Shown here: positions 36,611 through 58,710 of the stretch, in pieces
Numbering within the stretch: position 1 is the stretch's first letter
Layout of the letters: each line of letters begins with the position of its first letter
NCBI GenBank assembly: GCA_036654455.1
Contig: JAVVRZ010000001.1
Location: 124,001-188,000, forward strand
From: Clostridia bacterium
GTDB lineage: Bacteria > Bacillota > Clostridia > Christensenellales > CAG-314
DNA length: 64,000 bases
Direction: 5' to 3'
Program-made: the position numbers and the translations under genes
Notes under the pieces: model-generated
The model's database searches: none
What the model saw: only the letters and a program-made list of their open reading frames with translations
What the model was told of the DNA's origin: nothing

Positions 36611-36645
36611 TTATAGCATACTATTTGTGTAATAGTATGCTATAA
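36611..36645. terminator. bidirectional hairpin between thiI and the penicillin-binding protein
   Basis: TTATAGCATACTATT (36611-36625) pairs with AATAGTATGCTATAA (36631-36645), with a TGTGT loop. It covers the stop codon of the minus-strand gene. It includes one copy (36619-36637) of the dispersed 19-nt palindrome. Only short A/T tracts flank it. Confidence 0.7.
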
Positions 36646-40568: not shown

Positions 40569-42923
40569 ATGGGGACAGCCGTTTTTGAGCAATATTTAAG
40601 CATTAAAGGTCAATATCCTGACTGTATTTTATTTTTTAGATTAGGCGACTTTTATGAAATGTATAGGGAAGACGCTGAGATTGCTAGCAATTTGCTAGAT
40701 TTAACTCTAACCGCTCGTAGTTTAGGCGAAGAAACTCGCACTATTATGTGTGGAATTCCATTTCATTCGGCTCAAAAATATATAAACAAACTAGTTAGTT
40801 GCGGATATAAAGTCGCTATATGCGAACAAACACCTTCTATAAATGACAAACTAGCGTGCCGAGAAGTTGTAAAAGTTGTTACAAAAGGCACAAACATCAA
40901 CGACCTTGTTGAAGATAGAAATAATTTTATTGCTTCGATATATCTATATGACAATAATTTGGGTTGCGCAATTTGCGACGTTTCAACTGGCGAATTTAAT
41001 GCTTACGAACTTAATGATTTAGATAGTCTTGACAATCTTTTAGTAAGTTTTGCCCCAAATGAAATTATTAGCAATAGCTATTCTTTACGGCTAAACGATT
41101 GTTTGTCTTGTATTCTATCCAAGCAAATTTGTAAAATTACTCCGTATTACGACTACGCTTATAACTATAAAACGGCAAAAGAAATTGTTGATAAAAATTA
41201 CAATAGCGATAGATTTAATTTTTCGATAAATGGACGCAAATTTGCCTTTATTGCCTGTGGTTCGCTATTAAGTTATTTAATAAATAGTCATAAATGCAAT
41301 TTAAACCATATTACTAAGGTAAACTTCAAATCAAATTCGACATATATGTCCCTTGACAGCGTGACAAGACGCAATCTAGAAATATCTCTAACGCTTAGAG
41401 ATGGTAGACGGAAAGGTAGTTTGATTGATTGTTTAGATATGACCTGCACTAATGCCGGCGCAAGAATGCTTGTTGACTGGATTGAACGCCCGCTACAAAA
41501 TATTGAACAAATAAATTATCGCCTTTTTGGCGTAGAAGAATTAGTTAAACTAAAATTGCAAGAGCAACTAAAACAAACCTTAACGCAAACAACGGATATT
41601 CAAAGGGCGATTGCAAAAATTTCTTGCAATTCTTTTAGTGTTGACGACTGTCTGTCTATTAAAAATTCATTAAAATGTTTGCCTAGTTTGTTAATGCATA
41701 TTAATCATTGCAATTCTAACATTATAAAAGATATTATTACTACTTTGCATGGTTACGAGGAAGTAGACAAATTCTTTTCACTTATTTTTGGCAGTGAGAA
41801 TACTTTTGCAAAAGGATATAATGTAGATATCGACCAAGCCTACGACGAACTTAGCCTCGCAAATAAACAGCTACACGAGTATGAAGACGAACTTAAAACT
41901 TCGCTTCAAATTAAGACGTTGAAAGTTTGCGACAACAAAAATTATGGTATCTATATTGAAATTCCCAAAAAACAAAGCAATATTCCGGAAGATTTTTCAT
42001 TAAAAAGCTCTACGACAGCCGTCAATCGATACGTAACGCAGTATACAATTAATCTAGAACATAACTTGCGCTATTTAACTCAAAAGGTAAGCGATTTAGA
42101 ACAAAAATTATTCGCTCAATTTAGAGCGGAATTTGAATCTCGCATACCAATATTACAGCAAATTGCAATTAGCGTAGCGACAATAGACTGCCTTAATAGT
42201 TTTGCGTTTGTTGCGGTTATATATAACTACGTCTTACCTAATATTGTTGAACCTAATCAACCCTTAATAATTGTAGATGGAAGGCACGCAGTAGTTGAAA
42301 GGAATATAGAAAAATTTGTACCAAACAGCTTAATTATCAATCAAGCTCGCACAATTATAGTAACAGGTCCAAATATGGCGGGTAAAAGCACATTTCTTCG
42401 ACAAAATGCAATAATTGTTTTGCTCGCACATATCGGTAGTTTTGTTCCTTGCACAAAAGCGCAAATTCCATTAACCGATAAAATTTTTACACGGGTAGGG
42501 GCAATAGACGACATCTCGCTTAACAAAAGTACTTTTATGGTAGAGATGCTTGAAGTTAAGAATATTCTCTCTCTCACTACAAATAACAGTTTGATATTGT
42601 TAGACGAGATAGGCAAAGAAACTTCAACGCAAGACGGTTTAAGTATTAGCGACGCAATTTTAGAACATATTACTTACTCGATTAAAGCCAAGACTATTTT
42701 TTCTACTCATTTTCATAAACTTGTCGAACGTTATAAAACTAATGAGTTAGTAAAATGTTATCAAAGCAAAATAGAGATTAAGGACGAACATATTAAATTT
42801 TTATACCATATAGCAGAAGGCATTTCTAACAAAAGTTACGGCATTGAGATTGCTTCGCAAGCTGGTATTGCTAAGGATATTATTTTAAGGGCAAAGGAGC
42901 TGACAAGGTTTTATGAAAATTAA
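40569..42923 (+). CDS. mutS: DNA mismatch repair protein MutS, without C-terminal tail
   Basis: The product has 784 residues from ATG 40569, which follows AAAGGAG; the upstream in-frame ATG 40533 has no ribosome site. The mismatch-reading FYE motif is in FFRLGDFYEMY. Connector, lever and clamp domains follow, then Walker A GPNMAGKSTFLRQ (about 600) and LILLDEIGKETSTQDG. The protein stops just after the ATPase helix-turn-helix (AKELTRFYEN). It lacks the ~60-residue tail that in Bacillus and E. coli MutS carries the clamp-binding and tetramer elements. It overlaps mutL by 11 bases. Confidence 0.95.
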   Translation: MGTAVFEQYLSIKGQYPDCILFFRLGDFYEMYREDAEIASNLLDLTLTARSLGEETRTIMCGIPFHSAQKYINKLVSCGYKVAICEQTPSINDKLACREVVKVVTKGTNINDLVEDRNNFIASIYLYDNNLGCAICDVSTGEFNAYELNDLDSLDNLLVSFAPNEIISNSYSLRLNDCLSCILSKQICKITPYYDYAYNYKTAKEIVDKNYNSDRFNFSINGRKFAFIACGSLLSYLINSHKCNLNHITKVNFKSNSTYMSLDSVTRRNLEISLTLRDGRRKGSLIDCLDMTCTNAGARMLVDWIERPLQNIEQINYRLFGVEELVKLKLQEQLKQTLTQTTDIQRAIAKISCNSFSVDDCLSIKNSLKCLPSLLMHINHCNSNIIKDIITTLHGYEEVDKFFSLIFGSENTFAKGYNVDIDQAYDELSLANKQLHEYEDELKTSLQIKTLKVCDNKNYGIYIEIPKKQSNIPEDFSLKSSTTAVNRYVTQYTINLEHNLRYLTQKVSDLEQKLFAQFRAEFESRIPILQQIAISVATIDCLNSFAFVAVIYNYVLPNIVEPNQPLIIVDGRHAVVERNIEKFVPNSLIINQARTIIVTGPNMAGKSTFLRQNAIIVLLAHIGSFVPCTKAQIPLTDKIFTRVGAIDDISLNKSTFMVEMLEVKNILSLTTNNSLILLDEIGKETSTQDGLSISDAILEHITYSIKAKTIFSTHFHKLVERYKTNELVKCYQSKIEIKDEHIKFLYHIAEGISNKSYGIEIASQAGIAKDIILRAKELTRFYEN

Positions 42924-44712
42924 GCAATTAAAAGAGTCTATATTCCTTGATACCAATAATATAGTTAGAGATATTCCTTCGGTAATTAGAGAACTAATTG
43001 AAAATAGTATTGATGCTTCGGCGACTGAAATTACTATAACTATACCCGAAGATTATAGTAGCGTTACCGTTGCCGACAATGGTTGTGGAATAGAAGCTGA
43101 GGACGTTGATTTACTTATTAAGTCAAATTGCACAAGTAAACTTGACCGTAGTGATAAGTTGTTGGGATTTAGGGGTTTATCTCTTTTTTGTATCGGCGAA
43201 TTTGCAAGTATGGATATTACTACAAAAATATCTACTATGAAACCAATAGTATTTAAATATTATAAGGGTTTACGAAATACTATTAAAGACATAGTAACTG
43301 ATGAAATTAAATATGACAGTGGAACAACCATAAAAGTATATGGATTTTATGAAATTGATACGACTTCGCAAACTTTAATTAATGACATTGTTAAAATCGT
43401 TGGTAATATTATTCTTTCAAAACCAAATATTACCTTTTCTCTCACGATAGGAAACTATAATTTGCATCATAAAGCAAGCGAAATGCTTGACGCCGTTGGC
43501 GATGTTTGGGGAGAAAAAGCCAAAAATGATTGTTTCTATGCAACATGGTATTATACTGGTATTACAGTTGAAGGCTGTTTTGGCAAACCTAATTGTTCAA
43601 TCGATACCAAGGTATTACAAACAACGTCCATTAATGGTAGGGTAAGCGTAAACGCAGTTGTACAAAGCGCTATTGAAAACATATATAATCACTATTATAT
43701 GATTTCTAGATTTCCAATTTATTCTCTAAACATTACAATTCCATACAAAGATGTCAACTTCAATCTTGTTGGAGATAAGTCGCAAATTGAATTTAGCGAT
43801 GACGATTATGTCTACAAAGCTGTTAGAGCCTGTGTGTCAAAGTGTCTTCAATACTACTACTTGCATCAAAAATTGAACCAACGAGTAGATTACGTAGCTT
43901 GCTATATCAATAAACACTATCAACTATATACTAATAGTTTAAAGAAATCTAAGATAGCAACTCTTCCTAAAATTAAAGGGTATGACGGGCAAACATTCTA
44001 TGACAACGGCGGAGATATACTTGAACATACAAGTAACTCGTGGTTTTTGCGTGACCATACAATATTCGAATTAAACGAAGCTCTTAGCGACCTATACAAG
44101 AGGGAAACTTGCAAAAAATCCTACTATACTTATGCAAATGCAAAAGTTCTAGGTATGGTCTTTGACCGCTTTATTCTTATGCAGAGAGATGATTTTTTCT
44201 ATTGTTTAGATTATATAGGCATGAGAGCAAAATATTATTTTGATACCTACCTGCTTTCATTTGAAAAGAACATAATCGCAACAACCACAATGGTTGAACC
44301 TTACGTATTTAGACTTGACAAAGTTGATATGCATAACTTAGATTTTCGTATGCCTTTACTTGCGAAGTTAGGCTTTGTTTTTGCGCCATTAACCGACTAC
44401 TATTATAGATTAAATAAGATACCCGACATTTTTGCCGGTTCGCTTGATTATAAAAAATTTGTCACCGAATTATTAGTATTATTACAGCGTCGTGAAGAAC
44501 TTAATGATGAGGAATTTGCCAATTTTATTGATGCATTAGCTTGCAAACATCTTCAAATATGTACCCAAAACATTACGCTTAGCGAACTAAAATCTTTTGT
44601 CAAAAATTTAGACCGTGATAAACTAACAATATCCTACGATGGTAAACCATTAATCGTTGTTCTAACCATTTTTGATTTTCAACGTAAGTTTTTGGGGGAT
44701 AAATGCTTATGA
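42913..44712 (+). CDS. mutL: MutL homologue with degenerate endonuclease site
   Basis: The 599-residue protein sits in the mutS-mutL-miaA position. The GHKL ATPase region keeps IRELIENSIDASATEI (about 26-41), DNGCGIEAED and LGFRGLSLFCIGEF. The usual IAAGEVVERPASV start is changed to FLDTNNIVRDIPSV. In the C-terminal domain the metal-binding motif DQHAxxE is LDYIGMRAKYYFD (about 433-445). The ACxxAI motif is ACKHLQI, and CPHGRP is SYDGKPL. In organisms without MutH, MutL is the strand-nicking enzyme, so this protein looks nicking-deficient. No frameshift is visible. Confidence 0.88.
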   Translation: MKIKQLKESIFLDTNNIVRDIPSVIRELIENSIDASATEITITIPEDYSSVTVADNGCGIEAEDVDLLIKSNCTSKLDRSDKLLGFRGLSLFCIGEFASMDITTKISTMKPIVFKYYKGLRNTIKDIVTDEIKYDSGTTIKVYGFYEIDTTSQTLINDIVKIVGNIILSKPNITFSLTIGNYNLHHKASEMLDAVGDVWGEKAKNDCFYATWYYTGITVEGCFGKPNCSIDTKVLQTTSINGRVSVNAVVQSAIENIYNHYYMISRFPIYSLNITIPYKDVNFNLVGDKSQIEFSDDDYVYKAVRACVSKCLQYYYLHQKLNQRVDYVACYINKHYQLYTNSLKKSKIATLPKIKGYDGQTFYDNGGDILEHTSNSWFLRDHTIFELNEALSDLYKRETCKKSYYTYANAKVLGMVFDRFILMQRDDFFYCLDYIGMRAKYYFDTYLLSFEKNIIATTTMVEPYVFRLDKVDMHNLDFRMPLLAKLGFVFAPLTDYYYRLNKIPDIFAGSLDYKKFVTELLVLLQRREELNDEEFANFIDALACKHLQICTQNITLSELKSFVKNLDRDKLTISYDGKPLIVVLTIFDFQRKFLGDKCL

Positions 44713-45623
44713 AACCTTTACTTATTATTGCCGGCGCAACGGCTGTTGGCAAAAGTTCCCTTGCCTTAGAACTGGCAAAAACTCTAAATAGCGACATTGT
44801 TTCTGCCGACTCTATGCAAATATATAGAGGGCTAGATATAGGAACGGCAAAGCCTAGCAAAGAGGAGCAAAGAGCGGTAAAACACCACTTAATCGATATT
44901 GTAAATCCAGATGAAACATTTAACAGTTTTTTATATAAAGAAAAGGTTGAAGAGCTGTTTAAATCTAACGCTTATGGCGAAGTGCCTTTATTTGTTGGCG
45001 GTACTGGATTTTACTACGATTGTCTATTGCGCTCGCTTGATTTTAAGTTTGATGAGAGTTCCTCGCAAATTAGAGAAGAGCTTCTTGAATATTATAATAA
45101 TTTTGGTAAAGATGCCTTGTTTGCTAAATTAGAAGAAGTTGACCCCGAGTCGGCAAAACTAATACACAAAAACAATATTGTTAGGGTTATTCGAGCTATT
45201 GAAATCGCAAGTAGTGGGGTAAGGCTGTCTTCAAGAACACGCAATAAAAATACAAATTATCCCTATATTATGTTTACGCTTGATATGGATAGAGCAAAAC
45301 TTTATGATAGAATTAATAGTAGAGTTGATAATATGATTGCGAACGGCTTAGTTGAAGAAGTGGAAAGCATCTATAATTATTACAATAGAAATAAAGAATT
45401 GCAAGCGCTACAAGCTATTGGATATAAAGAAATTATTGAATATATAGAGGGGGCTATATCAAAGAAGGATACAATCGAACTTATCAAACAGCGTACTCGC
45501 AACTATGCTAAACGACAAATAACTTTTTTTAAACGGTTTGATAACGTTATAACGTTAGATGCAAACCTAGATATTACAATTTTGATTGATAAAATATACT
45601 CTTACTATAATAGTATTATATAA
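44703..45623 (+). CDS. miaA: tRNA dimethylallyltransferase
   Basis: The 306-residue enzyme adds isopentenyl to A37 of UNN-reading tRNAs. Walker A-like GATAVGKSSLALELA is followed by DIVSADSMQIYRGLDIGTAKP and the downstream YDRINSRVDNMIANGLVEEV. It overlaps mutL by ten bases. ATG 44703 and ATG 44709 are both possible with GGGGG at 44694-44698. It supplies the substrate for MiaB. Confidence 0.96.
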   Translation: MLMKPLLIIAGATAVGKSSLALELAKTLNSDIVSADSMQIYRGLDIGTAKPSKEEQRAVKHHLIDIVNPDETFNSFLYKEKVEELFKSNAYGEVPLFVGGTGFYYDCLLRSLDFKFDESSSQIREELLEYYNNFGKDALFAKLEEVDPESAKLIHKNNIVRVIRAIEIASSGVRLSSRTRNKNTNYPYIMFTLDMDRAKLYDRINSRVDNMIANGLVEEVESIYNYYNRNKELQALQAIGYKEIIEYIEGAISKKDTIELIKQRTRNYAKRQITFFKRFDNVITLDANLDITILIDKIYSYYNSII

Positions 45624-45640
45624 AATTCGATATTGTAAGA

Positions 45641-45659
45641 TACTATTACTGTAATAATA
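45641..45659. repeat. dispersed 19-nt palindrome, diverged copy
   Basis: TACTATTACTGTAATAATA, 16 of 19 positions as in the copy at 36619-36637. It lies in the 54-base gap before the next gene. Confidence 0.45.
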
Positions 45660-45677
45660 CTATATAAAGGATAAAAT

Positions 45678-46886
45678 ATGAATAAACTAATTAAAAATGC
45701 GTTAGAAAAACTAAGCGACAAATTTGCTAAAATTGACGAAATAGCATTAAACAATCAAGCAAAGGTGCTTAGAGCTTTTAGCCAAAATAAAGTTGCGCTA
45801 AGACATTTCTCGGGAACTAGCGGTTACGGATATGATGATGCGGGTAGGGATACTTTGAGTAATCTTGTTGCAAGTATTTTTAATGCTGAAAGCGCAATAG
45901 CTAGTCCGTTGCTTGCTTCCGGAACTCACGCAATCACAGTTGCTCTATTTGGCTTGTTAAGACAAAATGATGTTATGTTAAGTATTACCGGTGAAGTCTA
46001 TGATACTTTACAAGAAGTTGTTTTAGGTAAAGACGTCAATTCTCTTGCTGATATCGGCGTAAAGTACGAAGTAATTTCGTTGTTAAATGACTCTTTTGAC
46101 AGCGATAAAATTCTTAATTATATCTCTACGTCTGTGCCCCGAATTATTTATATTCAACGTTCTCGTGGCTACGAAATGCGTTCGGCAATTTCAAACGATA
46201 AAATAAAAGATATTGTTAATAAAGTTAGAAAGGTTGCGCCAAATATTATCGTAATGGTTGACAACTGTTATGGCGAATTTGTCGAGGAACTCGAACCTAC
46301 CGATGTCGGCGCAGATATAGTTGTTGGCTCTTTTATCAAGAACTTTGGCGGTGGGCTAGCCCCAAGCGGAGGATATATTGCAGGCAAAAACGAACTGATT
46401 AAACGAATATCATATCGCCTAACGTCTTCCGGAATAGGGCAGGAAGTCGGTAGCTATGCCTATGGCTATAAAGATTTCTATCAAGGTATTTTTCTTGCTC
46501 CACACGTCGTTGCGCAAGCAGTGAAAATAACTCAGTTGTTTAGTTATGTTTTATCAAATTTGGGTTATGAGGTTTTGCCTAGCCCAAATCAAATAAATTA
46601 TGATATAGTTTGTTCAATTAAATTTAATAATAAAGATAAATTAATTTCTTTTTGTCAAGCTATCCAACGCATTTCGCCTATCGATAGTTTTGTTACTCCA
46701 ATGCCGTGGGCAATGCCGGGTTACGCCGACCAAGTAATTATGTCGGCTGGTTGTTTTATTCAAGGCGCATCAATTGAGCTAAGTTGCGACGCTCCAATTA
46801 AACCGCCTTATGTGGTTTATATGCAGGGCGGACTTACCCTCGAACACGGTATACTTGCGCTAGAAGAAGTCCTCAAAACTTTATAA
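45678..46886 (+). CDS. ynbB: methionine gamma-lyase family protein (YnbB-like)
   Basis: The 402-residue PLP-dependent enzyme belongs to the PF06838 group (YnbB, once called aluminium-resistance protein). Landmarks are RHFSGTSGYGYDDAGRDTL, ASPLLASGTHAITVALFG, and the PLP lysine region VGSFIKNFGGGLAPSGGYIAGK near 218-239 (lysine in FIKNF). Its physiological substrate is not established. The neighbourhood with miaA and hflX is conserved in Bacillus. ATG follows AAAGGA. Confidence 0.92.
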   Translation: MNKLIKNALEKLSDKFAKIDEIALNNQAKVLRAFSQNKVALRHFSGTSGYGYDDAGRDTLSNLVASIFNAESAIASPLLASGTHAITVALFGLLRQNDVMLSITGEVYDTLQEVVLGKDVNSLADIGVKYEVISLLNDSFDSDKILNYISTSVPRIIYIQRSRGYEMRSAISNDKIKDIVNKVRKVAPNIIVMVDNCYGEFVEELEPTDVGADIVVGSFIKNFGGGLAPSGGYIAGKNELIKRISYRLTSSGIGQEVGSYAYGYKDFYQGIFLAPHVVAQAVKITQLFSYVLSNLGYEVLPSPNQINYDIVCSIKFNNKDKLISFCQAIQRISPIDSFVTPMPWAMPGYADQVIMSAGCFIQGASIELSCDAPIKPPYVVYMQGGLTLEHGILALEEVLKTL

Positions 46887-47159
46887 TCAAAATGATATAT
46901 TTTAGATAAATTACATTAAGTAGGTGAGTTATATTAAATATATAAGTTATATTAATTATTTAAGTTGTATTTAATATGTAAACTTTAATATTACAAAAAG
47001 ATAATGACTAACGATTATTTATAAATTAAAAGGACTTTTGTAATTAAACAAAAGTCCTTTTTTAAAAAATTTGATTAAATTTCTAAAAGTGATAAGCATC
47101 ATTTTAAATTAGATAAAGTTAAAAATATAATTATTTAAAATATATATCAATATCCTAGC
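46887..47159. other. gap between convergent ynbB and lexA
   Basis: The gap contains imperfect TTAAATATATAAGTTATATTAA-like tandem AT repeats (about 46910-46975; similar units vary) and the bidirectional terminator. There is no gene. Confidence 0.5.
47028..47063. terminator. bidirectional terminator between ynbB and lexA
   Basis: AAAAGGACTTTTGT (47028-47041) pairs perfectly with ACAAAAGTCCTTTT (47048-47061). A and T tracts on the two sides allow function on both strands. Confidence 0.88.
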
Positions 47160-47762
47160 TCAAAACTTCTTAATACAGCCTACGACAATCCCTAGAATTT
47201 GCACATCGCTGTTGTGATAATCAAGGACGATATCTTTAAGATTAGAGTTCTCCGGGTGGAGATACAACTTGTCGCCACGCCTAATAAATCTTTTAATCGT
47301 AGCTACGTCATCAAACATCGCAAGCACAATTTGATTGTTGTCGGCGTTGTTTTGCTGTTTAATAACTACTAAATCTCCGTCAAAAATACCTACCTCAATC
47401 ATACTGTTGCCAGTTACTCTCAATAAAAATAAATCATTTTGATTAAATAACTGTTTGGGAAGATTGTAGTAACCTTCAATGTTTTCGACCGCTAGTATTC
47501 CTGCTCCGGCGCTTACTGTGCCAACAAGGGGTAAAAATAGACCATCGGCTTTGTTTGCTAACCCGATAGAACGGTTCTTGTTATTTTGTTTTTCTAGCTT
47601 GCCAAGTTTAACTAATTTGTCGATATAAGAATAAACCATCGACGTAGAGCTAATGTCAAGGCCGGCGCAAATTTCTCTTACGGTGGGGGGATAACTGTTT
47701 GTCTGTATAAAATCACGCACGTAATTAAAGACAGAATTTAACTTTTGTTCAACTTTACTCAT
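47160..47762 (-). CDS. lexA: LexA repressor
   Basis: The 200-residue SOS repressor has an N-terminal winged helix-turn-helix (YPPTVREICAGLDISSTSMVYSYIDKL, about 24-50). The self-cleavage site is A85-G86 in TVSAGAG. The catalytic serine is S120 in TGNSM and the lysine is K157 in VATIKRF. recA, its coprotease partner, is at 56-57 kb. The ATG lies six bases after a -10 hexamer with no Shine-Dalgarno site. A near-consensus LexA operator sits just upstream of the -35. Confidence 0.95.
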   Translation of the reverse strand: MSKVEQKLNSVFNYVRDFIQTNSYPPTVREICAGLDISSTSMVYSYIDKLVKLGKLEKQNNKNRSIGLANKADGLFLPLVGTVSAGAGILAVENIEGYYNLPKQLFNQNDLFLLRVTGNSMIEVGIFDGDLVVIKQQNNADNNQIVLAMFDDVATIKRFIRRGDKLYLHPENSNLKDIVLDYHNSDVQILGIVVGCIKKF

Positions 47763-47768
47763 ATTTAG

Positions 47769-47797
47769 ATATTAGCACATATAGTATCATTTTGCAA
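47769..47797 (-). promoter_or_regulatory. lexA promoter with leaderless geometry
   Basis: On the minus strand TTGCAA (47797-47792), a 17-nt spacer and TAATAT (47774-47769). ATG begins at 47762, six bases after the -10. Confidence 0.62.
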
Positions 47798-47804
47798 GCA
47801 AAAA

Positions 47805-47818
47805 AGAACATTTGTTTT
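47805..47818. promoter_or_regulatory. candidate LexA operator
   Basis: AGAACATTTGTTTT on the plus strand. Its core GAACATTTGTTT fits the Gram-positive SOS box GAAC-N4-GTTC except for the last base. It is adjacent to the lexA -35. Confidence 0.45.
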
Positions 47819-47852
47819 GATTATTTGATACTTTTAATTAAACTTAGGTTAT

Positions 47853-47905
47853 TTACACGCATAGTATAACAGCTTATGGCTAATCGTACTATACTATGCG
47901 TGTAA
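47853..47905. repeat. perfect 16-bp inverted repeat between lexA and hflX
   Basis: TTACACGCATAGTATA (47853-47868) and TATACTATGCGTGTAA (47890-47905) are separated by 21 bases. It lies eight bases beyond the hflX stop, so it may end hflX transcription, but there is no T-run. It overlaps the dispersed palindrome copy at 47892-47910 (TACTATGCGTGTAATAGTA). Confidence 0.75.
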
Positions 47906-47912
47906 TAGTACA

Positions 47913-49133
47913 CTATTTAATGTATTGTTCGAACTTACTTAAATAAATACGCTCGATAGTCGTTTTAATAATAACGTTTTCTTCGGTATAGTCCATTGTA
48001 GTTTTAGTACCAAATTTTTGTATTAATCCCAAAATATCAAGCTTGTCACAGGGGACTGTTAAAACAATGTCGATATATTTTTGATTGATATGCTCTTCAA
48101 TTTTTTTCAACAATTCTTCTACGCCAATATTTTTCAACGCCGAAATGTAAACGCAATCATTAGTATTTTCAAATCGTTCCATAAGCAAATCGCATTTATT
48201 ATATACGGTGATTATCCTTGAAGTTATACCTAATTCGGCTAGTAATTCCTCAGTCACTTTTTGGTGCAAAGTATGTTGCGAAGAAGATATGTCTACTATA
48301 TCAAGTATTAAATCGGCATAAGTAATTTCTTCCAACGTTGATTTAAAAGACTCAATTAAACCGTGCGGTAGGTTGTTAATAAAGCCAACTGTATCAGTAA
48401 ATATTACGTTTACTCCGTTTAAAGACATTTTGCGGGCTGTGGTATCAAGAGTTGCAAAAAGTTTATTTTCGGCAAGAACATTCGCTTGTGTTAGAAAATT
48501 AAAAAGGGTTGATTTTCCTGCGTTTGTGTATCCGGTTAGCGCAACAATAGGCACATTATTTTGCATTCTATTATTACGAGATACGCCACGTTGTTTTGTA
48601 ATTTCTCTAAGTTTTTCATTAAGGAAGGTTATTCTGTCTTTAATTTTACGTTTGTTAACTTCAAGCTTTGTTTCGCCGGGACCACGTGTGCCAATACCGC
48701 CACCTTGACGTGTAAGTTCGCCAAGCTCCGACCTAAGGCGTGGTAAGTTGTATTTTAACTGAGCAAGCTCGACTTGAATTTTTCCTTGCGCCGAACTAGC
48801 GTGCATAGCAAAAATATCTAGAATTAGATTAGTTCTGTCAATTACAAGACAAGGTATTTTTTCTTGAATATTTCTAAGTTGTATAGGGGATAAAGTTTCT
48901 TCAAATACAACTAAATCGATGTCGTTTGCCTCAACTTGACTTGCAATTTCCAGTAATTTTCCACTGCCAACAACAGTCGCCTTATCTAAATATTCTTTAT
49001 TTTGATTAACTGTAAGAACAACTTCGCCATCGGCAGTTTTTACCAATTCGGTTAATTCGTCAATATCGTATTGACTTTGATTGTTTATAAAAACGAGTAG
49101 CACTCGTTGTTTTTTTATTATATTATCTTCCAT
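47913..49133 (-). CDS. hflX: GTPase HflX
   Basis: The 406-residue protein has the HflX N-terminal domain (ATVVGSGKLLEI, VFEETLSPIQLRNI), a glycine-rich linker (RQGGGIGTRGPGETKLE), and the G domain with GYTNAGKSTLFNFLT, DTVGFI and a variant NKCD. HflX splits stalled or vacant ribosomes under stress. The open frame extends to 49202, but GAAGGA before ATG 49133 and the conserved start favour that position. It pairs with ynbB in Bacillus. Confidence 0.94.
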   Translation of the reverse strand: MEDNIIKKQRVLLVFINNQSQYDIDELTELVKTADGEVVLTVNQNKEYLDKATVVGSGKLLEIASQVEANDIDLVVFEETLSPIQLRNIQEKIPCLVIDRTNLILDIFAMHASSAQGKIQVELAQLKYNLPRLRSELGELTRQGGGIGTRGPGETKLEVNKRKIKDRITFLNEKLREITKQRGVSRNNRMQNNVPIVALTGYTNAGKSTLFNFLTQANVLAENKLFATLDTTARKMSLNGVNVIFTDTVGFINNLPHGLIESFKSTLEEITYADLILDIVDISSSQHTLHQKVTEELLAELGITSRIITVYNKCDLLMERFENTNDCVYISALKNIGVEELLKKIEEHINQKYIDIVLTVPCDKLDILGLIQKFGTKTTMDYTEENVIIKTTIERIYLSKFEQYIK

Positions 49134-49447
49134 AATTTTTCCTTCATATATTTTATAGTTGCGCCATAAGGCAATTAGATATACCAAAAAAGCATTACAC
49201 AAAAAATAAACATCAAAAAAACTTTTAAATCAATTTTAATGTCTTTGCGCTATTTTGGTACTTTTAGTTTTATTTTTTTTAAATCTTTACTTGCTCATTT
49301 GAGTTATTCCTTTATAGTATAATTCCAATATTTATTATTGGTTGATTGTTTTTTATTAGTTTCTTTGTAATTCGCTACGTTAAAAATTACTTATGATATT
49401 TATCAAAATCTCGTCTAATATTAAAGTATTTACTAATATTATTAAGG
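49134..49447. other. gap upstream of hflX
   Basis: The gap is AT-rich and has no gene. A small hairpin, CCAATA (49327-49332) with TATTGG (49338-49343), may end the recombinase transcript on the minus strand. I found no hflX promoter with good spacing. Confidence 0.4.
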
Positions 49448-50515
49448 TTAGTCGTCTTTTTTGGAGTTAGGTTTTCTTAAAACAACTTGCTTAGAAGCTT
49501 TACGCCTAACGTCGTCGCTAATTGCTGCGTAATGTTTTTTTGTTGTGTTAACGTCTTTATGACCAAGAACGTCGGCAACTATATAAATATCGCCAGTTTG
49601 CCTATATAATTCTGTTCCGTAAGTGCTACGAAGCTTATGCGGAGATATTTTTTTAAGCGGACTAGCAATTTGACTATACTTTTTAACGATATTTTCAACT
49701 GAACGAGTAGAAATGCGCTTGTTTTGTAGCGATAAAAAGAATGCGTCTTGGTTAATTTCTTTTTGATTTTTGCGTAGCTGAGAATAATCGGCTAAAATTC
49801 CGCCAATTTCTTGACTGAAATATAAAACTACACGATTTCCGCCCTTGCGAGTTATTATAAAGCTAGCGTTATCAAAGTCGATGTCCTTGACATCTAGTCC
49901 AACAAGCTCGCTTATTCTTATGCCAGTGCCAAGCAAAAGCGCTACTATTGCAACGTCTCTTACGCTAGTGTTTTTGTGATAACTAAGTTGATGGGCGCTA
50001 AGTCCAATGCCTGTTTCGGCGCTTTCTAGGATACTTACAATCTCTTCGCCTTCAAGTCTAACAATTTCTTTTTCGTGAATTTTAGGAAGTCTTACGGGCG
50101 CAGTAGGGTCTTTTGACATCATTTCTTTGCGTATAAAGAATTTGATTAGCGCTCGAATAGAAGAAAGTTTTCTAGCTTTGCCTTTTTCTCCGTTGCTTAT
50201 AGATTTTCCCTCAGCATTTTCGTAATAAGATAAGTAGCTAAGATATTTTTCGATATCGTAACTGCTTAAACCTTCAATGTCGCTTAAAGTAATTTGCTTG
50301 ACGGCTTTGCCAACAAATTTGGTTTCGCTAGTGATGTATTTTAAAAATAACTTAATGTCATACATATAATTAAGCCGAGTTAGCGCCGTAGTGTTGTTTT
50401 CAATACCTATGCAGTATTCTCTACAAAACTCTGGCAGTTCTAAATCTAACATCTCATATATTTTATTAGAATTTTTATAATCTCTTTGAGCAAAATACGT
50501 CTTTTGTTTTTTCAT
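49448..50515 (-). CDS. tyrosine recombinase (XerC/D-like)
   Basis: The 355-residue site-specific recombinase has an N-terminal SAM-like core-binding domain (about 25-135) and a catalytic domain with R200 (GTGIRISEL), K224 (RKGGNR), H293-R296 (SPHKLRSTYG), H319 (LGHKDVNTTKKHY) and nucleophile Y329. The catalytic set is complete. It could be the chromosomal Xer enzyme that resolves dimers, or a stand-alone integrase. There are no phage or plasmid genes nearby, and the lexA/hflX neighbourhood favours a resident role. The ATG is six bases after a strong -10, with no Shine-Dalgarno site. Confidence 0.9.
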   Translation of the reverse strand: MKKQKTYFAQRDYKNSNKIYEMLDLELPEFCREYCIGIENNTTALTRLNYMYDIKLFLKYITSETKFVGKAVKQITLSDIEGLSSYDIEKYLSYLSYYENAEGKSISNGEKGKARKLSSIRALIKFFIRKEMMSKDPTAPVRLPKIHEKEIVRLEGEEIVSILESAETGIGLSAHQLSYHKNTSVRDVAIVALLLGTGIRISELVGLDVKDIDFDNASFIITRKGGNRVVLYFSQEIGGILADYSQLRKNQKEINQDAFFLSLQNKRISTRSVENIVKKYSQIASPLKKISPHKLRSTYGTELYRQTGDIYIVADVLGHKDVNTTKKHYAAISDDVRRKASKQVVLRKPNSKKDD

Positions 50516-50521
50516 ATTATA

Positions 50522-50550
50522 ATTATACCAAATTTACTCAAATATGTAAA
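50522..50550 (-). promoter_or_regulatory. recombinase promoter with leaderless geometry
   Basis: On the minus strand TTTACA (50550-50545), a 17-nt spacer and TATAAT (50527-50522). ATG starts at 50515, six bases later. Confidence 0.68.
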
Positions 50551-50735
50551 TGCTTATTTATTTATATTTTTTTGCTTGGTTTGATATTTGAGAAATATGC
50601 GATAGTTTTTAGCTATCGTAATTAAACATAAATTCTAAGAGGCTAGCGTAGCGTAAATCAAAATTCGCTGTTGCTTAATATAATATTAAAAATTAAATAT
50701 AGTTAAAAGTTCAGTTAAAGAGATACAAAATATAA

Positions 50736-50754
50736 TATTATTTGTGTAATAGTA
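50736..50754. repeat. dispersed 19-nt palindrome, copy
   Basis: TATTATTTGTGTAATAGTA, 18 of 19 positions as in the copy at 36619-36637. The arms can pair around TGTGT. Confidence 0.65.
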
Positions 50755-50831
50755 TATAGTAATTTAATTACGAAATTGGTAAGAATTTTAATTTATAAAG
50801 GCTAAATGGTACTAATTGACAAAATTGCTTG

Positions 50832-50869
50832 TATCTATGCGTAAAATTCGTGTTTTACGCATAGATACT
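50832..50869. repeat. perfect 16-bp inverted repeat
   Basis: GTATCTATGCGTAAAA (50832-50847) and TTTTACGCATAGATAC (50854-50869) around TTCGTG. It is 56 bases beyond the stop of the minus-strand YgjP-like gene and has no T-run. It shares the ACGCATAG core with the inverted repeat at 47853. Confidence 0.75.
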
Positions 50870-50924
50870 TACCCCATAGACAACCCTCCCGATAGTCCTT
50901 TTGTTAAGCCACATATAATAAAAA

Positions 50925-51656
50925 TTAAAAAATATCCATAAGAAAAGTATAATGTTCAATCAGCTGTATGTTCTTTTTGTAATTTGGTAAAACTTTTTCA
51001 ATTAAATTTATATACAAATTTGTATTTTCACTTGCTATCAATTTATATAATTGACCTACTACTATGCACAGTTGTAGATTTGGTGGTAACTGTATTACGT
51101 TACTTCGTAATTTTAGCAAATTATCCTTGCACTCTCCCCAACAATTAAGGTTGTCGCATATTTCTATGCCCGACGGGCAAAGGCTTAATCTCGAACCGAT
51201 TGCTGAAACATAATTTGGCAATTTTTGGCTTGCGGACTTCTTAATTATACCGCATAAAGCGTGTCGTCTCTTGTCGTAGCTATCAAACGATGCTTGGCTA
51301 AGCAGAATATCTTGTCTAGAAACGCTTGTATTTTTTTGTTTCGACGGCAGAACGTTATAAACGTAGCCATATAGAATTGTCTTTTTACAGGCGTAGAATT
51401 CTCGTAACATTTCTTGGTCAAATTCCACGCTAGGCTTTGTGTCAATAGACTTATTGGGTTTTAAGCTCCCACAACGTTCCCTTTCAGCGCCTTCTTTTTC
51501 CGGCGTAATAATAGTAATCGGCGCATATACACTCTCTACAAGCTTCTTTTCTAATTCTACAAGTGTCATATTCTTGGGAATTTGCGCAATTAAAGTGTCA
51601 CTTTTAGTAGACAATTTAATCGAATTATACTTATGCCTCAATACTACTACGTCCAT
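50925..51656 (-). CDS. YgjP/DUF45-like protein without the zinc motif
   Basis: The 243-residue protein aligns by eye with YgjP-like (DUF45, SprT/M48-type) metallopeptidases at both ends. The N-terminal strand region is LRHKYNSIKLSTKSDTLIAQ (residues 6-25). The C-terminal block CWGECKDNLLKL...VIQLPPNLQLCIVV matches the family's RWGSC...LxLPPEVIDYVVVHELAH. At the catalytic position the protein reads VVGQLYK (199-205): both His and the Glu of HExxH are gone (G201, Q202, K205). The third ligand position is N211. The ending VLPNYKKNIQLI matches the family's LPDYKERRKWL. It is probably a pseudoenzyme. The ATG follows GGAG. The middle (45-150) is unlike the family. Confidence 0.68.
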   Translation of the reverse strand: MDVVVLRHKYNSIKLSTKSDTLIAQIPKNMTLVELEKKLVESVYAPITIITPEKEGAERERCGSLKPNKSIDTKPSVEFDQEMLREFYACKKTILYGYVYNVLPSKQKNTSVSRQDILLSQASFDSYDKRRHALCGIIKKSASQKLPNYVSAIGSRLSLCPSGIEICDNLNCWGECKDNLLKLRSNVIQLPPNLQLCIVVGQLYKLIASENTNLYINLIEKVLPNYKKNIQLIEHYTFLMDIF

Positions 51657-51765
51657 TCTCTTTCTCCAACTTAATTATAATACAGTCAAAATCTAGTATT
51701 TTAGATTAAAATTAAAGATTATGTAAAATTTTGTAATAATATGATAGGCATAGTATTATATATTC

Positions 51766-51794
51766 TTGACAAAGCTGTTATACTGTATTAAAAT
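51766..51794 (+). promoter_or_regulatory. promoter of the PadR-like gene
   Basis: TTGACA (51766-51771), a 17-nt spacer and TAAAAT (51789-51794). It is divergent from the YgjP-like gene. Confidence 0.8.
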
Positions 51795-51825
51795 TAATAT
51801 AGAATTACAAAGGATGGTTAAAAAT

Positions 51826-53265
51826 ATGGCAAATTTTGACTTTTTAAAAGGCAATATTGAAATAATCATTTTAAACGCCCTATCGTTACAAGATGGTTAT
51901 GGATATGATATTGCAAAAGAAATTAAAGACAAAACGCAAAATTCCTATGAGATAAAACAGCCTACCCTTTACGCATATTTAAAAAGGTTAGAATTGCAAG
52001 AATTAATAACCTCTTATTGGGGTAGCGAATCTAGCGGCGGCAGAAGGCGCTATTATAAAATTACCGAAAAAGGTCGGCAATTTTGTCAAAATTTTAATCT
52101 AGAATGGAAATATCAAAAAACAGTTCTTGACACCCTTGTCCCCGACGACGATAGTTTGCCGATAACTCAAAAAGACACTACTTTGATGTTTGGCAAAAAA
52201 GTTAAAAAGCCCGTTCAAAAGATAACTCAAATCGAACAAGAAGAAATTGCTAAACAGCTTGATTTGCTAAAAGATGTTACTGCTTCTACACAATCAAAAC
52301 CCTTGGCAAAAGCCGACGTTACTGCTTCTACGCAATCAAAGCCTTTGGCAAAAAATAATGATTTATTAATAGAAGAAGAAGTAACCGCCCCAGCGCCCAC
52401 CACTTTCCTATCTTACAAGAAATCAAGTCTTGAACATAAGCCGATTGCTACAACTTCACAAATTGAAGATGTTTCTAATCCTGATATAGACTTGCAACCT
52501 TACGCTCCAAATAAAGAAGAATTTTTAGAAAAATTTAATAAAAAAGCGCAAGAAATTATTGATAAAAATATCCAAACGGCTCAACCTGATGTTAAAGAAG
52601 TTTTAACCGAAACAAGTTATGATGATGTTTCAACTAATTCGACAGCTCAACAGACTAATTATAAACACGTATTTAATACTCTACTTAAAACTCAGTTAGA
52701 CGACTCGGCGTTACATAGCGCCGACGTAGACATTCAACCCGAGATAAAGAGTTCGCAAACGTCTTCCCTAGACGAACTTGCAGACTCACTAGCAAAAGTT
52801 GGTATTAAGCTTAAAGTTTACAATAATCAAATATCTAACTATGCTCCCCAAGCTATGCTGTACAAAAATAAAATTATTTTTGTTTCAATTTGGCTAACGT
52901 ATTTTGCGACCGCTATTGAAATGCTTTTTGTTTGGCTTGCAGGCATTAATGTTTTACCTATCAACACATTAATTATTTATTGGTTATGCCTAGCTACCCT
53001 ACCTATTGCGTTAACGATACTTTACATAATCAACCCAAATAAAAAGACTAAACCGATATTTAATTTTAAGTACCATATAGTTAATGCGCTTATTGGCGCA
53101 GGACTTATAATTATTTTAGTATTTTCATTGTTTGTACTATTTGGTTGTTTGTTTAGCGACACTGTCCAGCTATTAACCTATGTAATCTTACCTTTGATTG
53201 TCGCTATAAACGTACCGATGTATCCAGTATTCTATAAACTTATATTCAAAAAAATGTTGATATAA
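51826..53265 (+). CDS. PadR-family winged-helix protein fused to a four-helix membrane domain
   Basis: The product has 479 residues from ATG 51826 (AAAGGATGG upstream; ATG 51814 would overlap the ribosome site). Residues 5-90 form a PadR winged helix (ILNALSLQDGYGYDIAKEI, QPTLYAYLKRLELQELI, GGRRRYYKITEKGRQF). Residues 110-340 are an acidic, low-complexity linker with a tandem 14-residue repeat (150-177). Residues 350-372, 380-403, 417-443 and 447-471 are predicted membrane helices. Normal PadR proteins are about 110-180 residues and soluble. This one should be a membrane-tethered DNA-binding protein. The ligand and target are unknown; its own divergent intergenic region is a candidate. Confidence 0.85.
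   Translation: MANFDFLKGNIEIIILNALSLQDGYGYDIAKEIKDKTQNSYEIKQPTLYAYLKRLELQELITSYWGSESSGGRRRYYKITEKGRQFCQNFNLEWKYQKTVLDTLVPDDDSLPITQKDTTLMFGKKVKKPVQKITQIEQEEIAKQLDLLKDVTASTQSKPLAKADVTASTQSKPLAKNNDLLIEEEVTAPAPTTFLSYKKSSLEHKPIATTSQIEDVSNPDIDLQPYAPNKEEFLEKFNKKAQEIIDKNIQTAQPDVKEVLTETSYDDVSTNSTAQQTNYKHVFNTLLKTQLDDSALHSADVDIQPEIKSSQTSSLDELADSLAKVGIKLKVYNNQISNYAPQAMLYKNKIIFVSIWLTYFATAIEMLFVWLAGINVLPINTLIIYWLCLATLPIALTILYIINPNKKTKPIFNFKYHIVNALIGAGLIIILVFSLFVLFGCLFSDTVQLLTYVILPLIVAINVPMYPVFYKLIFKKMLI
52273..52356 (+). repeat. tandem 42-bp repeat inside the PadR-like gene
   Basis: Two adjacent 42-base units (52273-52314 and 52315-52356) encode DVTASTQSKPLAK followed by A or N. DNA differences are mostly at third codon positions, so the duplication is old enough to have drifted while the peptide was kept. 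Confidence 0.9.
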
Positions 53266-58128: not shown

Positions 58129-58710
58129 TTATGCCTCGGCAAAAACGTTTTTATTTTGAATTAGATATACTATGCCAGAAATAATAGTTAATAAAACGGC
58201 TAAACCGAGAGTACTATACGCTAATATGTATATAACATCGTAAAAAACTTGGGAAACAGCAACTAGTTGAGTCTTCATATTGAGTAACATTGTAATCGGT
58301 AAAGCTATGGTTTGCATAACGGTTTTTAGTTTGCCGTATATGTTAGCTTGAACAATTACTCCCTTACTTGCCGCAACTTGACGAACCATACTTATGAGCA
58401 GTTCTCTTGCAATTATGACTGCGCCAAAAATTGTGCAAATCCATTTAGGTTCAAGCATTTGACTGTACGCTATTAAAAATAAAGCAAATCCTACAAGTAG
58501 TTTATCGGCGATTGGGTCAAGTAATTTACCTAAATTAGTGACCATATTATATTTACGAGCAATATGACCATCTAGTAAATCGGTAAGAGCGGCAATAATA
58601 AATATGCCTATTGCAACAAGCGGAGCGTAAGCAAAGTCTAATAAATAGACTACTGCAAATACTGGAATTAGGGCAATTCTTAGTAGAGATAATTTGTTAG
58701 GTAAGTTCAT
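58129..58710 (-). CDS. pgsA: CDP-diacylglycerol--glycerol-3-phosphate 3-phosphatidyltransferase
   Basis: The 193-residue membrane enzyme makes phosphatidylglycerol phosphate. The CDP-alcohol transferase signature is complete in DLLDGHIARKYN...GKLLDPIADK (D-G-x2-A-R-x8-G-x3-D-x3-D). About five membrane helices are predicted. It overlaps rimO by four bases. The rimO-pgsA-cinA-recA order is conserved across Firmicutes. Confidence 0.95.
   Translation of the reverse strand: MNLPNKLSLLRIALIPVFAVVYLLDFAYAPLVAIGIFIIAALTDLLDGHIARKYNMVTNLGKLLDPIADKLLVGFALFLIAYSQMLEPKWICTIFGAVIIARELLISMVRQVAASKGVIVQANIYGKLKTVMQTIALPITMLLNMKTQLVAVSQVFYDVIYILAYSTLGLAVLLTIISGIVYLIQNKNVFAEA

Follow-up and report, generated by a model that had tools for sequence, protein, structure and literature searches.

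A PadR domain fused to four membrane helices

The analysed window, 64,000 nucleotides from the genome of a Clostridia bacterium (G000), carries on its plus strand a gene of 479 codons (51826–53265; hereafter the focal gene) whose product combines a PadR winged helix, a linker, and four membrane helices. The frame runs from ATG to stop with no internal stop. The gene is embedded in a housekeeping block comprising mutS-mutL-miaA-lyase, lexA-hflX-recombinase, a divergent YgjP-like gene, rnhA, rny, recA, cinA, pgsA, and miaB, and at this locus the neighbouring genes suggest no signalling system. The divergent gene (50925–51656, minus strand), which encodes a YgjP-like metallopeptidase domain, adjoins the focal gene in most loci of the family. 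The gene, its architecture, and its conservation were established by computation, as were its position at the skew switch, the site array, and the site polarity in relatives described below.

The PadR DNA-binding and dimerization domain occupies residues 1–108 (51826–52149, plus strand). A Pfam scan of the focal protein returned PadR (PF03551) as the sole match over the cut-off, at residues 15–87 (E 2.5e-19, 69.5 bits vs. a cut-off of 27), in agreement with a preliminary description of this DNA that had placed a PadR winged helix at residues 5–90. The same scan, on which alone the absence of MatP and Tus was judged, gave no match to HAAS/DUF1700, MatP, Tus, or RTP. Solved PadR structures were matched by phmmer over residues 4–105. 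Single-sequence structure models were too weak for a fold search (pLDDT of 49 for the PadR part and 63 for the membrane part), and the resemblance to RTP considered below therefore rests on the published structures of PadR-s2 proteins.

The linker between the PadR domain and the membrane helices (52150–52872, plus strand; ~235 residues) varies outside a few conserved boxes, and in homologs it is about 117 to over 400 residues long, with a few still longer. It had been characterized as a low-complexity segment with a tandem 14-residue repeat. The repeat was confirmed, with copies of DVTASTQSKPLAK beginning at residues 150 and 164 (52273–52356, plus strand); it is found in this species only and forms an unmatched insert in the family alignment. 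The linker is not merely of low complexity, however, as the same alignment contains the conserved short boxes ATPLFG, DEQDEIARRL, QDNAEEF, ENYQHVL, and LEDVADSLAKEGIRLRIYN, with conservation peaking in the last two, immediately before the membrane part. In alignment A1, the window protein has the box NYKHVFNTLLKTQLDD (52651–52701, plus strand; family form ENYQHVL..LG.QLD) and the juxtamembrane box SLDELADSLAKVGIKLKVYNN (52768–52830, plus strand).

The membrane part (52873–53220, plus strand) consists of hydrophobic helices near residues 350–368, 383–401, 421–439, and 447–465 by hydropathy, which bears out the four helices previously proposed at residues 350–471. An N-in/C-in topology is predicted by the positive-inside count: among 34 homologs, Lys and Arg amount to 0.198 per residue on the predicted inside faces vs. 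0.054 in the outer loops. The two outer loops of the window protein are only about 7–14 residues each, and the protein therefore lacks an external sensing domain. Of the one-component membrane sensor suggested in the preliminary description, the combination of DNA-binding domain and membrane anchor is supported, whereas sensing of the ToxR/CadC type is unsupported because of these short loops.

The full-length architecture is kept in ~40 homologs of the bacterial order, present in the majority of genomes of the focal gene's own family and also in several further families. The fusion is a single open frame in these homologs, as it is in the window; a stop or frameshift in the linker is excluded. 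In a class-wide sample of 245 genomes, long PadR-membrane frames were seen only within the order, and among the matches listed those from outside the order were almost all PadR proteins of about 110–150 aa. In a search for named relatives, a scan of genome contigs gave one locus with a PadR-only match, and a viral scan gave none. Two order-level homologs are divergent: one (G044, L050:8313–9416) has the linker and membrane part without the PadR domain, and in the other (G052, L049:7947–10931; 994 aa) the winged helix is degenerate and the linker acidic and very long.

Palindromic sites and the inferred replication terminus

Comparison of upstream regions identified a palindrome, TACTAT[GT]N5[AC]ATAGTA (consensus about TACTATGTCANAAATAGTA), in the promoter of the focal gene. 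It lies ~10 nt upstream of the TTGACA −35 element in about 27 of 29 family members; the window copy (51737–51755, minus strand; TAATATGATAGGCATAGTA on the plus strand) precedes TTGACA at 51766–51771 by the same distance. The divergent region 51657–51825, singled out earlier as the first place to look for binding, does contain the palindrome, but it is only one location among several, since the region of the terminus holds further copies, some of them within genes or in gaps where convergent genes meet.

The window contains 11 occurrences of the palindrome at up to 3 mismatches, compared with 3.7 expected, and the whole genome contains 27 sites at up to 2 mismatches, compared with 2 for a reversed control. 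Besides promoters, the window sites fall within the coding sequences of mutL and pgsA and in a gap where genes converge. Those of the terminus class are located between convergent genes (36619–36637, plus strand), inside mutL (43233–43251, no strand assigned, and 43278–43296, minus strand), at the end of miaA (45597–45615, a weak site with no strand assigned), upstream of a methionine gamma-lyase-like gene (45641–45659, minus strand), between hflX and lexA (47892–47910, plus strand), between the tyrosine recombinase and YgjP-like genes (50736–50754, plus strand), and inside pgsA (58168–58186, plus strand). In most of 12 loci of the family, a terminus-class site is conserved 20–80 nt upstream of the methionine gamma-lyase-like start (45597–45678 in the window); it may be a regulatory target, which would leave room for a regulatory side role, or a conserved terminus site.

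A mobile repeat was rejected as the source of the sites, as information content is ~0.25–0.4 bits outside the core, except for AT-rich flanks in genus g3. In that genus (G036, G025, and G016), AT tracts flank the palindrome to either side and lengthen the sites to ~59 bp, the tract facing the origin being the better conserved; such extended sites may reflect bent DNA or a second dimer. A soluble PadR paralog of ~110–140 aa adjoins a palindrome of its own, TACTATGCAATGTATAGTA or close to it, with the same half-site and a different centre (G036, C1:945838; G025, C1:420692; G016, C8:88687; G020, C1:205078).

The proximity of sites to lexA in some genomes, together with the site inside pgsA, upstream of cinA-recA, raises the question of whether the palindrome is a LexA/SOS box and the focal gene encodes a membrane protein induced by DNA damage. 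We regard this as extremely improbable: the motif occurs in only 37% of lexA upstream regions and in none of the upstream regions of recA/ftsK clusters, and the identity was rejected on the grounds that the conserved element in lexA promoters is a different one, a GAAC-type box resembling GAACAAAAGTTT. This element, a probable LexA box, lies upstream of lexA at about 47762–47900 in the window and recurs in relatives.

The approximate GC-skew switch, taken as the inferred replication terminus, was placed at 41000–52000 (no strand) from the skew of the window's own contig and its cumulative maximum. The skew switches near C1:165 kb, corresponding to 41 kb in the window, and the cumulative maximum within the window is about 4.7 kb upstream of the focal gene. 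On the 1.1-Mb main contig of G036, dnaA (832.7 kb) coincides with the cumulative GC-skew minimum, and the focal gene (207.5 kb) is near the maximum (about 200 kb). A skew switch near the focal gene was also observed in the window's own genome, in G016, and at most order-level loci, while in two test genomes it occurs at 0.4–2% of random positions. A search for a canonical dif site near the focal gene gave no match better than 8 mismatches.

The sites are concentrated in the same region. In the window's genome, all eight exact TACTATKN5MATAGTA sites lie within the first 273 kb of the gene-bearing contig (chance 2.5e-6). In G036, 18 of 20 motif sites lie between 56.7 and 377 kb (~320 kb), and exactly these 18 were returned when the 59-bp model was run on that genome; among 150 column-permuted motifs, the best clustering was 11/18, vs. 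17 for the real motif. Two-thirds of the clustered G036 sites (12/18) are intergenic or at gene edges, though ~91% of the DNA is in open reading frames. The focal contig holds six of seven sites in G012 and seven of eight in G003. Beyond family f1, family f15 shows enrichment of the motif as well (18 sites vs. 4 for the control in G293; 9 vs. 2 in G050), and no clear enrichment was found beyond these two families in the genomes scanned. Gene and motif are both missing from G017, and G002 has the motif with neither the focal gene nor its neighbour detected; most of the genomes compared are fragmented assemblies, and the G036 and G016 sequences contain stretches of N.

Polarity of the sites

Sites were oriented with a motif built from G036, G025, G016, and the promoter sites, using the G-containing half and blind to genome position; those with an asymmetry of at least 3 bits were counted, with the focal gene as the switch point. 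In G036, the 18 clustered sites to the left of the gene are all on the minus strand, and those from its own promoter rightward are all on the plus strand. Across ten genomes of four related genera, 79 of 84 sites follow this minus-left, plus-right arrangement (p 1.7e-18, an overstatement because the test takes each site as independent and disregards the common ancestry of related species). The TAYTATG half, which is strongly conserved, is oriented toward the terminus, and the AT-rich extension faces the origin. In most of the related genera, the asymmetric sites thus share one direction relative to the terminus, and any machinery moving along the DNA would encounter one face on its way into the region and the other on its way out. 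Base-composition skew is disfavoured as the cause of the polarity: the best of 150 column-permuted motifs reached 14/18 in G036, while the real motif reached 17, and the GC skew is opposite in direction to the G-richer strand of the sites.

The window's own genome is a clear exception. Unlike the ten relatives, it keeps the terminus cluster and lacks the polarity, which was not found there with the core, the flanks, or the 59-bp model (4/12). In family f15, the sites are nearly perfect palindromes with no inherent direction.

Candidate roles of the focal protein

The sites were assigned to the focal protein on the basis of the promoter copy, the PadR-type half-site (compare the related palindrome at the soluble paralog), and co-location. 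They might instead be owned by another protein, be it a soluble paralog of the PadR family, a DNA translocase, or a recombinase, leaving the focal protein in control of its own gene alone through a similar operator. Soluble paralogs do have the related upstream palindrome, and in G054 the operator upstream of the gene is accompanied by no clear genome-wide enrichment. This assignment is nevertheless quite unlikely, given that the paralog palindrome has a different centre, the copy in the focal promoter belongs to the terminus class, the gene is located at the polarity switch, and G017 is devoid of both gene and motif.

An improbable alternative, too, is a membrane-bound one-component transcription regulator whose targets lie near the terminus by chance. 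PadR proteins are mostly regulators (PMC3506622), and the palindrome in the gene's own promoter, the preference of the G036 sites for intergenic regions and gene edges, and the site conserved ahead of the methionine gamma-lyase-like gene are all compatible with such a role. A conventional regulon is disfavoured, however, because sites lie in coding sequence and in convergent gaps and follow the polarity of the terminus rather than gene direction; moreover, the protein has no external sensor domain, and neighbouring genes yield few conserved targets. The distribution of the palindrome is more readily explained by a protein that binds the terminus than by a regulator that responds to a signal. 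Because the promoter site recurs around the terminus, with opposed orientations in relatives, the probable task of the protein is to hold or police the endpoint of replication at the cell membrane, not to sense a signal.

We therefore consider it probable that the focal protein binds the terminus at the membrane, a core that is shared with a purely anchoring role of the MatP/ZapT kind. In such a role, the protein would tie the terminus to the membrane or septum without arresting forks, and the polarity would be a secondary trait of some genera. The membrane helices and long linker, the terminus clustering in polar and non-polar genomes alike, the absence of polarity in the window's own genome, and the precedent of ZapT (PMC7188993) are all consistent with an anchor, which we nonetheless rate as rather unlikely, as it leaves the 79 of 84 one-directional sites in four genera unexplained.

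Since the terminus features are those common to Tus and RTP and the helices would provide a link to the envelope that RTP lacks, a membrane-anchored directional terminus protein is favoured, although that the protein acts as a directional barrier has somewhat less than an even chance in our estimation. A PadR dimer would bind TACTAT[GT]N5[AC]ATAGTA through its winged helices; the copy just upstream of its promoter would confer autoregulation, and further copies would be arrayed to either side of the terminus. The four membrane helices and the long flexible linker would hold the bound DNA at the cytoplasmic membrane. The most likely use of this arrangement would be an RTP-like directional barrier that admits forks to the terminus and hinders their exit, in addition to membrane tethering. 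We infer each of its elements, namely binding of the protein to the sites, anchoring of DNA to the membrane, and fork arrest.

More tentative is the complete proposal of an integral-membrane fork trap, PadR-based and convergent with Tus/RTP, that would block outgoing forks while itself fixed in the membrane and so couple termination, terminus positioning, and possibly division in a single protein. The lack of polarity in the window's genome, the directionless sites of family f15, and the occurrence of the motif in G002 all weigh against the favoured directional barrier. All fork traps known to us, moreover, are soluble proteins.

Comparison with known systems and implications

RTP blocks forks when the strong half-site faces them. 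By analogy, the strongly conserved half of the sites studied here would face forks leaving the terminus, the same geometry as in RTP. In Tus and RTP systems, the gene is at the terminus, has a site in its own promoter, and is flanked by two opposed groups of polar sites (PMC10331603, PMC13220808); a ter site in the own promoter is known for both rtp and tus (PMC10331603). The focal gene and, in relatives, its sites share all these features with the RTP/Ter system of Bacillus subtilis, and PadR-s2 proteins have the overall topology and winged-helix dimer of RTP (PMC3506622). The focal protein differs from RTP in its added linker and four membrane helices, and its sites differ in their spread over about 320 kb in G036 and in their lack of polarity in the window's genome. 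Homologs of RTP (PF02334) were found in none of seven genomes, with a positive B. subtilis control, and the focal protein gave no match to this family.

The confinement of many sites to the terminus region, inside and between genes, is shared with MatP/matS and ZapT, as is the route from terminus DNA to the cell periphery that is predicted here by analogy (PMC7188993). ZapT belongs to the MerR proteins and carries a regulator annotation, yet its binding sites are near the terminus, which it connects with the Z-ring (PMC7188993). The present protein is unrelated, with no MatP match in its Pfam scan, has its anchor in the same chain and polar sites, and belongs to a different bacterial lineage. 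As for nucleoid occlusion, Noc and SlmA sites are depleted from the terminus, whereas the focal palindrome is concentrated there.

With ToxR, CadC, and TcpP, in which a cytoplasmic DNA-binding domain is tethered to the membrane within one chain (PMC10269533), the focal protein shares this joining of DNA-binding and membrane parts, but it has four helices and no external sensor domain, and the palindromic sites form an array at the terminus instead of being limited to promoters. The PSP-associated HAAS-PadR dyad likewise pairs a PadR winged helix with a membrane part; there, however, a standalone PadR works with a separate membrane protein (PMC11237479), whereas here the two are fused and HAAS/DUF1700 is unmatched.

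Beyond enterics, Caulobacter, and B. subtilis, little is established about how bacteria manage the chromosome terminus: reports of MatP and ZapB are confined to enterics (PMC7188993), and fork traps are known from a small group of bacteria only (PMC10331603, PMC13220808). In the literature searched, we found no link between PadR proteins and the chromosome terminus. If the proposed role is correct, the terminus system of these bacteria would have evolved independently and, in the literature searched, would be the first whose membrane anchor is built in; direct tethering of terminus DNA to the membrane would become testable. Annotation as a PadR transcriptional regulator could mask a protein of chromosome structure.
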